From assembly GCA_025354985.1 (NCBI GenBank), contig JANXLU010000057.1, forward strand, positions 1 to 56,070: 56,070 bases of DNA, read 5' to 3'. Position numbers and translations under genes: made by a program. Below, piece by piece: positions 1,535 to 33,872 of this stretch. Within the stretch, counting starts at the first letter, position 1, and the number at the start of each line of letters is the position of its first letter. The notes under the pieces were generated by a model, which was given only the letters and a program-made list of their open reading frames with translations, did not search any database and had not been told where the DNA came from. The stretch is from Chloroflexota bacterium. Its GTDB lineage: Bacteria > Chloroflexota > Anaerolineae > J036 > Brachytrichaceae.

Positions 1535-2578
1535 TCAGGCGGCCGCCCGTTGCAGGCGGTCCGCAATTGCGGCTCCAAGGCCGGTGCGCTCGACCTGTAG
1601 GGCCAGAATGACCGTGGACCCCGCACTGTCCAGTGCGCGCAGACCGGCATACAGATTTCGGGCCATTGATTCATGATCATTACCAACTATGTACTTCGTG
1701 TGATCGTCGGCAAAATCCGCCTGATGGGCCGAGGTGAGCAACAAACCAACCTTGTGTCCCCGAGCCCCTTGTACTGTAAGCTCCCGACGCAGGTCAAATG
1801 GATTGTTACAAATAATCAATTTTGCATTTGGCGCGTAGTGCTTCTCGAGCATTCCAGGCGCGGCCAATCCAGTTTGCAAGCCGGGTTCCGTATGCGCGCT
1901 GGTACGCACGGCCATCCCGACAATAGTTTCAATCCGCTCCCGCGTGACGCCGCCATGACGCAACAGCACAGGTGGCCATTGCAGCGCATCCAACACGCTG
2001 CTCTCGATTCCTATTTGGGTTGGTCCGTCATCCAAAATAATCGATACGCGGTCGCCAAGATCATCGCGCACATGCTGGGCCGTGGTAGGGCTGGTATGCC
2101 CAAAGCGGTTGGCGCTGGGGGCGGCCACGGGAACACCCGCGAGCGCGATCAACTGTTGCGCAACGCGATGCGCGGGCATGCGCACGGCAACATGCTCGTG
2201 ACCGGCGGTAATAAGAAGCGGTATGCGCGCTCCGCGGGGAAATAAAAGCGTGAGCGGACCGGGCCAGCATGCGTCAATCAACCGACGGAGGACGATCTGC
2301 GTATGGGTTGGAATGGCCTCAAGATCTATCACCCCGGATTGGCCCAGTTCTTCCAGAATAGCGTTTGGGTCCGTGACCGACGGGTGCGACTGCATGGGCG
2401 CAACGTGAACAATCAACGGGTCGCTTAATGGTCGCCCCTTTGCCTCAAAAATGCGGGTGCACGCCGCCGCGTCAGTGGCGTTGGCCCCCAACCCATAGAC
2501 CGTTTCAGTGGGGAACGCAACCAACAGCCCGTCGCGCAGGGCCTGCGCGGCCATCTGCAACTCAGCCGGGCTGATCAT
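1535..2578 (-). CDS. sua5: L-threonylcarbamoyladenylate synthase (Sua5 type)
   Basis: Makes threonylcarbamoyl-AMP from threonine, bicarbonate and ATP for the t6A37 modification of ANN-decoding tRNAs. The 347-residue protein has the two-domain Sua5 layout: an N-terminal YrdC domain with FPTETVYGLG and KGRPLSDPLIVH, and a C-terminal Sua5 domain with APGMLEKHYAP. I chose the ATG at 2578, ten bases after the nuoC stop; an in-frame upstream start at 2656 would add 26 low-similarity residues and overlap nuoC by 68 bases. No clear Shine-Dalgarno site is visible, so translation may be coupled to nuoC. It is the last gene of the minus-strand run that begins at 7324. Confidence 0.93.
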   Translation of the reverse strand: MISPAELQMAAQALRDGLLVAFPTETVYGLGANATDAAACTRIFEAKGRPLSDPLIVHVAPMQSHPSVTDPNAILEELGQSGVIDLEAIPTHTQIVLRRLIDACWPGPLTLLFPRGARIPLLITAGHEHVAVRMPAHRVAQQLIALAGVPVAAPSANRFGHTSPTTAQHVRDDLGDRVSIILDDGPTQIGIESSVLDALQWPPVLLRHGGVTRERIETIVGMAVRTSAHTEPGLQTGLAAPGMLEKHYAPNAKLIICNNPFDLRRELTVQGARGHKVGLLLTSAHQADFADDHTKYIVGNDHESMARNLYAGLRALDSAGSTVILALQVERTGLGAAIADRLQRAAA

Positions 2579-2588
2579 TGATGGCGCG

Positions 2589-3104
2589 TTATTCCCGGGC
2601 GTAAATTTTCCCTTCGTCGATGCGTTTGCGGTTGAAGGTAAATGCAACTTCCTCAACTTTGACCGGGTGTTCCTTGCGGAGTGGATGGCCCTCCCATCCT
2701 GGTGGCATCATGATCCGGCGCAAATCCGGATGATCTGAAAATTGGATGCCCAAGAGATCATAGAGCTCACGCTCAAACCAGTTGGCGTTCTCAAAGACGG
2801 CGCATGCGCTTGGTACCACCGGGTTGGTCTCGCCCAACATTAGCTTGATCCTCAGCCGCACGTTTTTGCTTGTGGAATAGAGCTGGTAGATCATGCCAAA
2901 GCGGGGTGACTTTGGGTAGTAATCCACGCACGTCTCATCGGCCAGCATGTTGAAGTGCTGTTGATCCTTTAAATAGCGCAGCACCTCGACAATGCGTTCG
3001 GCGGTTGTCAACAGCGTGAGCTCTCCGCGAAACTCCAATTTTCCGGTGACTGCGTCACCCAAAGCCATGGAAACTGTGTCGGATAGTGCGGTTTGGTCTG
3101 ACAT
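2589..3104 (-). CDS. nuoC: NADH-quinone oxidoreductase subunit C
   Basis: The 30-kDa peripheral-arm subunit of respiratory complex I, 171 residues. The signature segment ERELYDLLGIQFSDHPDLRR and the C-terminal HPLRKEHP are those of the family. It is a stand-alone NuoC, not a NuoCD fusion. It follows nuoB with one base between stop and start, so the two are co-translated. The next gene downstream is sua5 rather than nuoD, so the rest of complex I must lie elsewhere or be replaced by another copy. Confidence 0.95.
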   Translation of the reverse strand: MSDQTALSDTVSMALGDAVTGKLEFRGELTLLTTAERIVEVLRYLKDQQHFNMLADETCVDYYPKSPRFGMIYQLYSTSKNVRLRIKLMLGETNPVVPSACAVFENANWFERELYDLLGIQFSDHPDLRRIMMPPGWEGHPLRKEHPVKVEEVAFTFNRKRIDEGKIYARE

Positions 3105-3105
3105 G

Positions 3106-3588
3106 CTATTGCCACTTTGTGAGTGGTTCTTTCTTGATCTTTTCCTGCAATTTCAATATGCCGTCGATCAGTGTTTCGGGCCGTGGAGGACAACCCGCCA
3201 CGTAGACATCCACCGGGACTATTTCGTCCACGCCCTGCACAATGGCATAGTTGTTAAATACGCCGCCGCATGAGGCGCAGTCACCCATGGCAATCACCCA
3301 TTTTGGATCTGGCATTTGATCATACAGGTTGCGCAAAACAGGCGCCATTTTCCGGCTGACACGCCCGGCGACGATCATGAGATCGCTTTGTCGTGGGCTG
3401 GCACGCATGAGCTCCATGCCGAAGCGACTAAGATCATAGCGGCTGGCCTGGGTGCTCATCATTTCAATTGCGCAACAAGCCAGACCAAACAGCATCGGCC
3501 AAATGGCGTTTGAACGCGCCCAACCAACTACTTTTTCCAGCGACGTCGTCACGATCCCCATGTCGCCAAGTTTTTGTTCCAAACCCAT
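3106..3588 (-). CDS. nuoB: NADH-quinone oxidoreductase subunit B
   Basis: The 20-kDa subunit that carries cluster N2, the last iron-sulfur centre before quinone. Of 160 residues, the four expected cluster ligands are present: adjacent Cys38-Cys39, Cys104 in GDCASCGG, and Cys133 in VAGCPPRPE. Length is normal. The start is 2 bases after the nuoA stop. It is expected to bind NuoC, NuoD and NuoI at the membrane face. Confidence 0.97.
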
Positions 3589-30157: not shown

Positions 30158-33121
30158 TTAAGTTTTGGGAACGGGCGGAATCTCTCCGACAGGTGTCGTG
30201 CGCTTTAGCCAGCGTTCCGTTGCCAGCCCTATTTGTGCAAGTGTTCCACGAAACTGGGTTGGGTCTGGCAGGGCATTTAGAAAGGAAGCACCGTAACCCT
30301 TGCTGGTCACGCGTTTGTCCAGCACCGCAACCACTCCCCGGTCTTGCTTGGTTCGTATCAACCGCCCAAAACCCTGGCGAAATTTGAGAACTGTTTCCGG
30401 GACGCTATATTCGTTAAACGGATCATCAAAGGTCTCGCTACGCGCCGCAAAAATTGGGTCTGTAGGCACATCAAACGGTAATTTGCAAATGGCAAGCGCA
30501 GTGAGTTTATCACCCTGAATATCAACGCCTTCCCAAAAGCTTCGGGTCCCAAGCAATACGCCGGCTTCGTGGGCGCGAAATTGCTCCAGCAGTGATCGCC
30601 GGCTGACGCCATCGGCCTGTTCAAACACGGTCACCCCGTGACGCGCGAGTTCTGGGGCTATCACGCGACCTGTGGCGCGCAAGGCGCTGTAGCTCGTGAA
30701 CAAGGCCATGCCCCGACCCTTGGACGCTCGAAACAAGTCGATGAGGGCACGCTCAAGTGCTTGTTGATAGCCCGGTTGATTGGGCTCCGGCATGTCGGTT
30801 GGCAGAAAAACGAGCGTGCTGTTTTTGAAGTCAAACGGTGACCCAACTGCCAATTCGCTCGAGTCAGCAGCGTTGAGCCTGTTCTTGATGTAGTTAAAGC
30901 TGGGCTGATTCCTTGTCGCGGGTGTGGCGGTGCGCAAGGTGGCGCTGGTCATCACCACGCTCACCTTGCCCTTCCATAAGTTCTTCTCAAGCAATGGCCC
31001 AACGCGCAGAGGCGCCGTGTTAAGGCGGACGCGCAAGTTGCCTTTGTTTCGACCAAAATTGGGCGTGCTTACATCGGCCCAGTAGATGCGGTCCTTGTCA
31101 TCGGCCTTGCTGATGATGCCGTTTAACTGTTCAATTGCCTCAACAAAGAATCGATTGGCCCCGGTGAGTCGACCAAGCAGAAGCTCCATTTGCTCAAGGT
31201 CATCCCCCTGTTCGGCGAGCCCGTTAATGATGCCACCCAGCCCGCGGCTGACGCTGGTGAGATCATGCAGCAAGTTGTCAAAACTGGATTCAACCGAGCC
31301 CCAACCGGGTGAGCTGCGTGCACCGGAAGTAATGCGCACTCGTTGCGCGTAATCCCCCTGATCGCTTCCCGAGATTCCCGTCAAGAACGCGCCAAGCTCA
31401 TCCCAAAACACGGCGTTGACCGTATGCGCCTTCATCACACTGCTGCTGGTTTTTTCCGCAAGGCGTTCAAACGCCGCAGCCTTGTCAACCGGAAGTGCCG
31501 AGCGCACCTTTGCAAGCACATCCGCAATGACGCCCGCCGATTTTGCGCGGCTAGTGATTGCACCCTTGCTCACCTCGTCCAATTCGCGGGCAACGTCATC
31601 GCGTTCGATTTCATAGGTCAGCGAGTCGGTTGCCGCACCTTCCAAGTGGTGACCTTCATCCAGCACCAGATATTTGTATTCTGGCAGCGCGCGGTTTTCC
31701 ACCGCAATATCGGCAAGAAGGAGTGCGTGGTTGACGATGATCACGTGTGCCGACTCCGCCTGCTTGCGGGCCTGAAAGAAATAGCATTCCGTTGCGGTGC
31801 ATGTCTTCATGTTGCAGGCCGGGTTTTGTGCGCTTAGATGTGCAAATGCCATCCGTTCACCGGGAGACGGGATGAATAGTTCGTCGGCATCACCCGAAAT
31901 CGTGTTGGGCAGCCAAATCAAAATTTTGCTAAGCAGCCTGGCCTCATCCAGTGACCGCGGACCGATGCGGCGCAGATCACTCACGCGGTTTGGGCAGATA
32001 TACCGGGCCTTGCCTTTCATAAGCGCGGCACGAGGTGGCTCGTAGGTTGGCGAATCGGCGCCGTTGCGTGTTTCATGCTGGGCGGTCAGCACGTCAATCA
32101 GCAATGGCACGTCCTTCTCCATCAGCTGCTCCTGAAGGTTGATGGTGTTGGTGCTTACCACTACCCGTTCGCCGTTCTTCATGGCCCACATCAGGGACGG
32201 AATCAAATAGGCAAAGCTCTTGCCCGTCCCTGTGCCCGCCTCAATAAAGGTCATGTCGCCATTGTTAAAGCTTTGCGCAACCTTGCGAAGCATATCCAGC
32301 TGCTGTGGGCGAACTTCGTAGTTGGGCACTTTTTGCTGGAATGCGCCGCCTTCACTCAAAATGTGCACGACTTCGTCCACGACCAACTCTTCAATATGTT
32401 CCGCTGGCGACAACGGGCGCAACTGACCGCCGGCCTTGCGTCTGAGTGCACCAGTCAGCGGGTTGCGTTTGCGTTCGTCGACAACCGCACGCTGAAGCTT
32501 TGCACCCAGGTTGGTTGTAAACGTGCCACGCGCCTGTTGTTGCAATGCCTCCCGCCAAAATGGCGCCAACAGCCAGCCGCTCTTTTCACCCATTCGGGTG
32601 ATTTCTTCCAACACGTCGGTGGGAAGTTCAGTCGCGCGTTGAAAGATGCGCATGTAGAGCTCGGCTGATGCCCGGGCATCATCAAGCGCCCGATGGGCAT
32701 CCTTTAGCACGATGCCAAGTGATGCAGCCAGCGACCCCAGTGAATAGCGACCGGCATGTGGCACCAGGATGCCCGCCAGTTCAAACGTATCCAGTGATTC
32801 GTTCCTGTCAAATACGCGTTGCTTTCTCAGAAACCCCAAATCGAACTGAATGTTGTGACCGATGATGGGCGCATCACCGACAACCTTTTGGGCCTGGCGC
32901 AGGGCATCCCACAGGGGAATGCCATCGCGCTTCACCATTTCGTTGGTGATGTGGGTTATTTCCGTGATTTTCGGCGGGATATCCCGACCCGGGTTTATCA
33001 GCGTGCTCCATTCCTGCTCGATTTCCGATCCATTGAATCGAACGATTCCAATTTCCAGAATTGCATCGCGGTCGGAATCCAGACCGGTGGTTTCAATATC
33101 GAGCGAGACGAGTGAGCGCAT
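30158..33121 (-). CDS. dinG: DinG-type helicase fused to a DnaQ-like 3'-5' exonuclease
   Basis: 987 residues from ATG 33121. Residues 1 to about 165 form a DEDDh exonuclease: LDIETTGL, IGHNIQFDLGFL and HRALDDA carry the four acidic residues and the His. The rest is an XPD/DinG superfamily-2 helicase with Walker A EAGTGTGKSF, DEGHH as motif II, and a Cys-rich stretch (YICPN then NPACNMKTCTATEC) for the iron-sulfur cluster. The fusion is the Gram-positive form of DinG. The ATG at 33133 lies inside the -10 box and cannot be used. Short leader expected. Two palindromes at 33332-33417 lie in the divergent region. Confidence 0.92.
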   Translation of the reverse strand: MRSLVSLDIETTGLDSDRDAILEIGIVRFNGSEIEQEWSTLINPGRDIPPKITEITHITNEMVKRDGIPLWDALRQAQKVVGDAPIIGHNIQFDLGFLRKQRVFDRNESLDTFELAGILVPHAGRYSLGSLAASLGIVLKDAHRALDDARASAELYMRIFQRATELPTDVLEEITRMGEKSGWLLAPFWREALQQQARGTFTTNLGAKLQRAVVDERKRNPLTGALRRKAGGQLRPLSPAEHIEELVVDEVVHILSEGGAFQQKVPNYEVRPQQLDMLRKVAQSFNNGDMTFIEAGTGTGKSFAYLIPSLMWAMKNGERVVVSTNTINLQEQLMEKDVPLLIDVLTAQHETRNGADSPTYEPPRAALMKGKARYICPNRVSDLRRIGPRSLDEARLLSKILIWLPNTISGDADELFIPSPGERMAFAHLSAQNPACNMKTCTATECYFFQARKQAESAHVIIVNHALLLADIAVENRALPEYKYLVLDEGHHLEGAATDSLTYEIERDDVARELDEVSKGAITSRAKSAGVIADVLAKVRSALPVDKAAAFERLAEKTSSSVMKAHTVNAVFWDELGAFLTGISGSDQGDYAQRVRITSGARSSPGWGSVESSFDNLLHDLTSVSRGLGGIINGLAEQGDDLEQMELLLGRLTGANRFFVEAIEQLNGIISKADDKDRIYWADVSTPNFGRNKGNLRVRLNTAPLRVGPLLEKNLWKGKVSVVMTSATLRTATPATRNQPSFNYIKNRLNAADSSELAVGSPFDFKNSTLVFLPTDMPEPNQPGYQQALERALIDLFRASKGRGMALFTSYSALRATGRVIAPELARHGVTVFEQADGVSRRSLLEQFRAHEAGVLLGTRSFWEGVDIQGDKLTALAICKLPFDVPTDPIFAARSETFDDPFNEYSVPETVLKFRQGFGRLIRTKQDRGVVAVLDKRVTSKGYGASFLNALPDPTQFRGTLAQIGLATERWLKRTTPVGEIPPVPKT

Positions 33122-33140: not shown

Positions 33141-33331
33141 ATCGCACGCCTCTCGATATGCTTCGCGATCATCGCGCCCAACCACCGTTGGCGCGCCAAA
33201 TAACGCGGTCGAAACGTTGGCGGTATTCGGCAAGGTGCATACATCGACCTTTTCAAGGTGGGTTTTGAAGCTGTGGCCGGCACAATGACAATCAGTGGAC
33301 AAAAGGCGGATTTGAGGAGTTTAGCAAAGAA
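33141..33331. other. Intergenic part upstream of dinG, nothing clear
   Basis: The interval 33122-33461 has no gene on either strand. Its left part, after the dinG promoter, shows no recognisable gene, RNA or strong hairpin. The short frames here have no coding look. The right part holds the two palindromes and the promoter of the VOC gene. Confidence 0.5.
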
Positions 33332-33349
33332 TTAGAACAAAAGTTCTTA
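33332..33349. promoter_or_regulatory. LexA-like operator 1 (GAAC-N4-GTTC)
   Basis: TTAGAACAAAAGTTCTTA contains the 12-base core GAAC-AAAA-GTTC, the Gram-positive (Cheo) LexA box pattern. Its centre is 68 bp from that of operator 2. Confidence 0.5.
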
Positions 33350-33391
33350 CTTGTTGATGAGTAGGTTGTGATTCTGGCAGGGAAGTTCGTC

Positions 33392-33420
33392 TTGACAAAT
33401 TAGAACACGCGTTCTAAACT
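33392..33420 (+). promoter_or_regulatory. Promoter of the VOC-protein gene
   Basis: TTGACA (33392-33397), a 17-base spacer and TAAACT (33415-33420): a near-consensus sigma-70-type promoter. Operator 2 sits inside the spacer and the -10, so a bound repressor would block polymerase. Confidence 0.75.
33400..33417. promoter_or_regulatory. LexA-like operator 2, inside the promoter
   Basis: TTAGAACACGCGTTCTAA: seven-base arms TTAGAAC and GTTCTAA match perfectly around ACGC. The core is GAAC-N4-GTTC. LexA is the first candidate; a TetR or MarR regulator with a similar palindrome is possible. Confidence 0.6.
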
Positions 33421-33461
33421 ATGCATCGCGCCGACAAATCCGGTCGCCACGAAGGAGCAAA

Positions 33462-33872
33462 ATGCAATCACAATTGGGTCACGTTGTTTATGGCGTTGCT
33501 GCGGAACACCAGCCGTTTTACAAGGACTTATTCGAATTTTTAGGGTGGACAGTGATTTACGACAGCCCTGAAATGTGTGGGTTTGGCGACAAAAATCACG
33601 CAAGCGTATGGTTTGGACGCCCACTAAAAAGCACCGTTAATGACTATGACGGCTTTGGCGTCAATCATGTTGGCATTCACACGTCCGAAATTGAGGACGT
33701 TGACACAGCTGCTGCATTTTTGCGTAAACGTGGCATTGCCATGCTATTTGATACACCAAGACATCATCCTGAGTTTTCGAGCCCGACCAACGTCTATTAT
33801 CAGATTATGTTTGAGTCTCCGGATCGAATTTTGTTTGAAATTGTCTATACGCCTGCGTCTGGTGCTGCGTAG
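33462..33872 (+). CDS. VOC (glyoxalase/dioxygenase superfamily) protein
   Basis: 136 residues, two beta-alpha-beta-beta-beta halves typical of the vicinal oxygen chelate fold: GHVVYGVAAEHQPFYKDLFE at the start, GVNHVGIHTSEIEDV in the middle, and PDRILFEIVYTP with a Glu that may bind metal. The substrate is unknown; relatives include glyoxalases, dioxygenases and antibiotic-resistance proteins. The gene has a strong Shine-Dalgarno (AAGGAG, four bases from ATG) and a strong promoter under an operator, so it looks tightly repressed and highly inducible. Confidence 0.85.
   Translation: MQSQLGHVVYGVAAEHQPFYKDLFEFLGWTVIYDSPEMCGFGDKNHASVWFGRPLKSTVNDYDGFGVNHVGIHTSEIEDVDTAAAFLRKRGIAMLFDTPRHHPEFSSPTNVYYQIMFESPDRILFEIVYTPASGAA

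Follow-up and report, generated by a model that had tools for sequence, protein, structure and literature searches.

The window, by which we mean the whole stretch of 56,070 nt analysed here, covers positions 1-56,070 on the forward strand of contig JANXLU010000057.1 (assembly GCA_025354985.1), from a Chloroflexota bacterium (Anaerolineae; J036; Brachytrichaceae) with a genome size of 4.19 Mb. A dinG-type helicase gene and a gene for a small VOC-fold protein diverge from one another in it, and two GAAC-N4-GTTC palindromes (boxes 1 and 2; Table 1) lie between them, 68 bp apart, where the initial annotation had placed them. That annotation had also put the second palindrome inside a near-consensus promoter, which proved correct: box 2 fills the 17 bp spacer between a TTGACA and a TAAACT hexamer and overlaps the latter, and the VOC start codon follows 41 bp past the end of the −10 hexamer. 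Around box 1 no clear promoter was seen. Scores were obtained with a symmetrised matrix built from 44 lexA boxes only, the boxes at VOC genes being excluded from its training.

Table 1. Features of the VOC-dinG locus, with positions in the window.
Feature	Position	Strand	Basis
dinG-type helicase with N-terminal DnaQ-like exonuclease, divergent from the VOC gene	30158..33121	-	Open reading frame; start from comparison with relatives
LexA box 1, TTAGAACAAAAGTTCTTA	33332..33349	.	17.3 bits with the lexA-trained matrix (25 relatives)
−35 hexamer TTGACA of the VOC promoter	33392..33397	+	Same hexamer conserved before the box in VOC homologues
LexA box 2, TTAGAACACGCGTTCTAA, putative operator inside the VOC promoter	33400..33417	.	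18.8 bits, the top score in the window; relatives have a box at the homologous position
−10 hexamer TAAACT; shares bases with the right arm of box 2	33415..33420	+	TA and final T conserved across homologues
Ribosome-binding site AAGGAG	33452..33457	+	Read from the sequence
VOC-fold protein of 136 aa; His7, His69 and Glu126 are conserved as putative metal ligands	33462..33872	+	Open reading frame, alignment and AlphaFold model

The VOC protein matches the Pfam Glyoxalase profile with 18.5 bits, below the cut-off of 20.6. Its AlphaFold model (mean pLDDT of 83) has the VOC fold, and both the model and its structural matches display the paired β-α-β-β-β modules of the superfamily. By both structure and sequence comparison, the protein is most similar to 3ct8, an uncharacterised putative glyoxalase from Bacillus halodurans (Z of 16.0, r.m.s.d. 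of 2.0 over 123 aligned residues, 24% identity; profile E value of 5.8e-10), with which the His and Glu positions align; further VOC matches, with Z of 11-13.5, include Fos enzymes, glyoxalase I and mitomycin- and bleomycin-binding proteins. In an alignment of 52 rows of homologues His7 and His69 are present in all 52, Trp50 never varies and 51 rows have Glu126, the remaining row having a gap there. The two histidines and the glutamate occupy the ligand positions of the superfamily (the opening strand of either module, and the final strand), where VOC enzymes of similar kind bind a metal. Their conservation points to an enzyme rather than to a protein that simply binds a drug, and the product is probably a small, homodimeric metalloenzyme with His7, His69 and Glu126 as its metal ligands. 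The modelled fold by itself does not reveal the substrate. The protein is assignable neither to the Fos enzymes nor to glyoxalase I or the bleomycin-binding proteins.

Another reading sees in the VOC protein a means of drug resistance, akin to the Fos, bleomycin-binding or mitomycin-binding proteins, and explains the SOS control by target drugs that themselves damage DNA or set off the SOS response. The model does match FosA, FosB, FosX and the mitomycin- and bleomycin-binding proteins with Z of about 11.5-12, and the three Fos enzymes share the size and fold of the VOC protein and the His-His-Glu arrangement that is typical of the superfamily. Mycobacterium tuberculosis has DNA-damage-induced VOC proteins in Rv0887c and Rv0911, the former induced by mitomycin C (PMC3776920); these are likewise VOC-fold proteins of unknown substrate, and Rv0887c sets a precedent for a VOC protein induced by damage, whereas their genes are controlled by the sigma factor SigG and not directly by a LexA box of their own. 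Against drug resistance, the nearest match is the glyoxalase-like 3ct8, the identity to the Fos structures is only ∼14-21%, none of the resistance models in Pfam or NCBIfam scores above its cut-off (there was no match to a curated Fos family model, and the only NCBIfam match, PRK06724, is far below its cut-off), no plasmid copies were found and the conserved metal ligands speak against a pure drug-binding protein. We consider drug resistance to be unlikely. Assignment to a named drug-resistance family was rejected, with no model above cut-off, no plasmid copies and no PADLOC hit.

The dinG gene is an SOS gene in Escherichia coli, and the initial annotation had attached meaning to its divergence from the VOC gene. 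Comparison with relatives, in which the homology begins at MR(S/T)LVSLD, suggests that the conserved dinG start is the ATG at 33121 rather than the GTG at 33283 that had been listed. Box 1, on the dinG side, is some 210 bp upstream of this start. It may be an additional operator for the VOC gene, or it may serve dinG, in which case box 1 would control dinG and box 2 the VOC gene, as a divergent pair of SOS genes. A pair of this kind is doubtful: the upstream regions of dinG in 25 relatives carry a box in none (0/25), the best scores there being weak matches inside the first codons of dinG, and no promoter hexamers were seen around box 1 in the direction of dinG. The significance given to the divergence was thus not borne out, as dinG has no box in the 25 relatives and boxed VOC homologues adjoin other genes. 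We rejected dinG as a conserved target of the boxes; with all 25 upstream regions free of a box, its adjacency looks incidental and the gene is probably a bystander outside the conserved control, although box 1 might act on dinG in this organism alone.

GAAC-N4-GTTC is the LexA box of Gram-positive bacteria, in a passage of PMC3323433 that cites it for Bacillus subtilis and M. tuberculosis. To read the regulon of the host genome we used pattern searches and local loci; the counts leave out weaker boxes elsewhere, and the places given for GAACN4GTTC are among the matches listed. One clear lexA gene was found (contig C81, 32661-33308). Its upstream region, TTGACACTGAACATTCGTTCGGTATAATCGAACATTAGTTCAG, has two GAACN4GTTC boxes, the first of which separates the TTGACA and TATAAT hexamers of a promoter, an arrangement like that at the VOC gene. 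The box upstream of recA, AGAACAAAAGTTCT, is nearly identical to box 1. Exact boxes precede imuA-imuB, a DUF6504-dnaE2 cassette, nrdJ and an FtsK-like translocase gene, and boxes with one mismatch precede priA and uvrA. The core that the initial annotation had ascribed to the LexA of Gram-positive bacteria is therefore the motif found at lexA, recA, imuAB and the dnaE2 cassette of this genome, at lexA in the shorter GAACN4GTTC form. A LexA motif of a different type at recA and lexA, which would have spoken against LexA control, was looked for and did not appear: both genes have the GAACN4GTTC type, with recA boxed in the host and lexA boxed in every genome of the family in which lexA was detected.

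The relatives carry the same motif at lexA: one or two boxes precede the gene in 25/25 genomes of the family with a lexA hit, and in 28 of 30 more distant hosts a GAACN4GTTC-like box lies a short way upstream of lexA. Of the other two, one is cut by a contig end and the Caldilineaceae genome is doubtful as it has two competing lexA-like genes. The motif is thus the one that the two window boxes match, in the host as well as in its relatives. As in the Gram-positive LexA regulon, lexA carries the box itself, and recA, imuAB, dnaE2 and uvrA are among the probable targets.

A private repressor, the alternative raised by the initial annotation, might instead bind the two palindromes, for instance one of the TetR or MarR type that responds to the substrate of the VOC protein. 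Such repressors typically have paired palindromes at the promoters they control, and the VOC gene does have two exact boxes at close distance, but no regulator gene adjoins it in the window and lexA itself has this motif, as do recA, imuA and dnaE2. A private repressor is very improbable on these grounds, and we discarded it with no regulator gene nearby and the motif spread through the genome.

Besides lexA and recA, boxes were located at the following loci of the host genome. The stand-alone FtsK/SpoIIIE-like translocase (336 residues; locus L047, gene 2160-3170) has two upstream LexA-type boxes at 2005-2040 of that locus, one exact and one with a single mismatch. The gene for a B12-dependent ribonucleotide reductase, 3′ of an nrdR-like gene, has an exact LexA-type box directly upstream (L045:2021-2034). 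A further exact box (L052:1928-1941) separates a DUF4287-DUF5655 gene from the following gene of the same strand; the gene at 1953-2534 of this locus is on the minus strand.

The 12 bp core alone is unexceptional in the window: two copies were found against 0.75 expected, and 19 of 100 shuffled sequences reach two. The extended 18 bp form TTAGAACN4GTTCTWA occurs at three places in the genome, namely the two in the window and one before the dnaE2 cassette. AGAACN4GTTCT occurs 26 times genome-wide, compared with nine times for a reversed control pattern, and the chance that two among 26 sites fall within 100 bp of each other is about 0.016. Several of the 26 exact boxes sit inside genes or far from gene starts.

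An earlier protein-only scan of genome contigs recovered no VOC homologues. A wide alignment-based scan of named genomes gave 82, of which 80 were kept and 78 were scored. By record title their hosts are nearly all Chloroflexota (Thermoflexales, Anaerolineaceae, Caldilineaceae, Herpetosiphonaceae, Thermomicrobiales and Tepidiforma), with a few CPR bacteria. A box of at least 9 bits lies within 200 bp of the start in 47 of the 78 homologues, compared with 0.9% of 2012 control windows from the same loci, and these boxes are mostly between the −35 and −10 hexamers. Within the family the box is present in the window and in six of seven relatives. In a second control, 304 regions upstream of the remaining genes of these loci were scanned and 21 scored; when sorted by hand, all but one of the 21 turned out to be a VOC gene or a gene that shares the intergenic region of one. 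The box counts are not independent, since the homologues are related in sequence; clustering at 60% identity gave 27 clusters; 14 of them include at least one boxed homologue, and in 11 the boxed homologues are the majority. About 40% of the homologues, including that of G005 (a genome of the same family) and those of the CPR bacteria, have no convincing box in the scan with the lexA-trained matrix.

When the upstream regions are aligned on the box, the GAAC...GTT columns approach 2 bits and the TTG of the −35 and the TA...T of the −10 hexamer are conserved at a fixed distance, while the other flanks are unconserved; the aligned set was preselected at a score of at least 11, and describes the architecture rather than testing it. 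In many Anaerolineaceae the 3′ arm of the VOC box is GTTT, merging with the TATAAT hexamer, which sets these boxes apart from those of the Gram-positive regulon. The genes that adjoin the VOC homologues vary between genomes while the box stays. Chance matches, for which the expectation of the 12 bp core in a window of this size might be invoked, have next to no probability, given the comparison with control windows and a box that keeps its place in the promoter throughout the phylum. The CPR homologues (L197, L199, L202, L206 and L208) come from Roizmanbacteria, Dojkabacteria, Collierbacteria and Pacebacteria; none has a convincing LexA box, which suggests transfer.

We thus read the VOC gene as a LexA-repressed SOS gene that encodes a VOC metalloenzyme, and give this reading, regulation and enzyme class together, a probability of roughly 0.85; it draws on sequence comparison for the identity, position and conservation of the operators and for the predicted fold. 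With LexA bound to box 2, between the −35 and −10 elements, RNA polymerase would be kept off the VOC promoter. This placement of the box is able to block transcription and recurs in the VOC homologues and at lexA; box 1, further upstream, would probably strengthen the repression. RecA filaments on damaged DNA would inactivate LexA, and the VOC enzyme would then be made together with RecA, ImuAB and DnaE2. DNA damage very probably switches the gene on, because the operators precede it and the promoter-fused box is kept before its relatives across Chloroflexota. The view that the VOC gene is an unexpected member of a DNA-damage regulon, put forward from the window alone, is accordingly very probable, since lexA, recA, imuAB and the dnaE2 cassette have the motif and most relatives keep it upstream of their VOC gene. 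The enzyme would most likely modify a small molecule that is electrophilic or genotoxic and that is the damaging agent itself or a by-product of the damage; such a detoxifying role is plausible from the fold and from the company that the gene keeps.

SOS regulons are best known for genes of repair, replication and division. LexA repression of the VOC gene would be an ordinary mechanism acting on an unexpected, conserved target, and the regulon differs from that of Gram-positive bacteria in that VOC genes of two families are included. In the open literature that we searched, with most subscription journals outside its scope, no paper on a link between LexA and such VOC genes was found; this is weak evidence of absence. 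A bolder reading, which we regard as rather improbable, would make the VOC family a phylum-wide core SOS effector whose substrate arises from damage to DNA or nucleotides, such as an electrophilic fragment of a base or sugar, and is not an outside drug. If true, it would add to the SOS response a chemical clean-up branch of a kind not described before. The family is a defined one with cultured hosts (Leptolinea tardivitalis and Tepidiforma flava), in which the substrate can be hunted for.

The LexA proteins of the family (L080-L104) keep the catalytic Ser and Lys of the peptidase. At the position of the scissile Ala-Gly, with E. coli LexA used for orientation, they mostly have Ala-Ser or Cys-Gly. 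In the genus of the window the site reads ITCDGEHG, with one extra residue; because this stands where the scissile Ala-Gly is expected, LexA cleavage in the genus may differ from the textbook form.

The second VOC family is a two-domain, glyoxalase-like one. Its gene in the same genome (contig C47, 115574-116344; L033:575-1345) has a LexA box at −127 with 18.3 bits. A paralogue in the same genome (C29:242174) and the homologue in G005 have no box, and four homologues in three related genomes (two in G001 and one each in G003 and G007) are boxed at 19.5-24.8 bits. This second boxed family supports the theme of SOS-controlled VOC genes.
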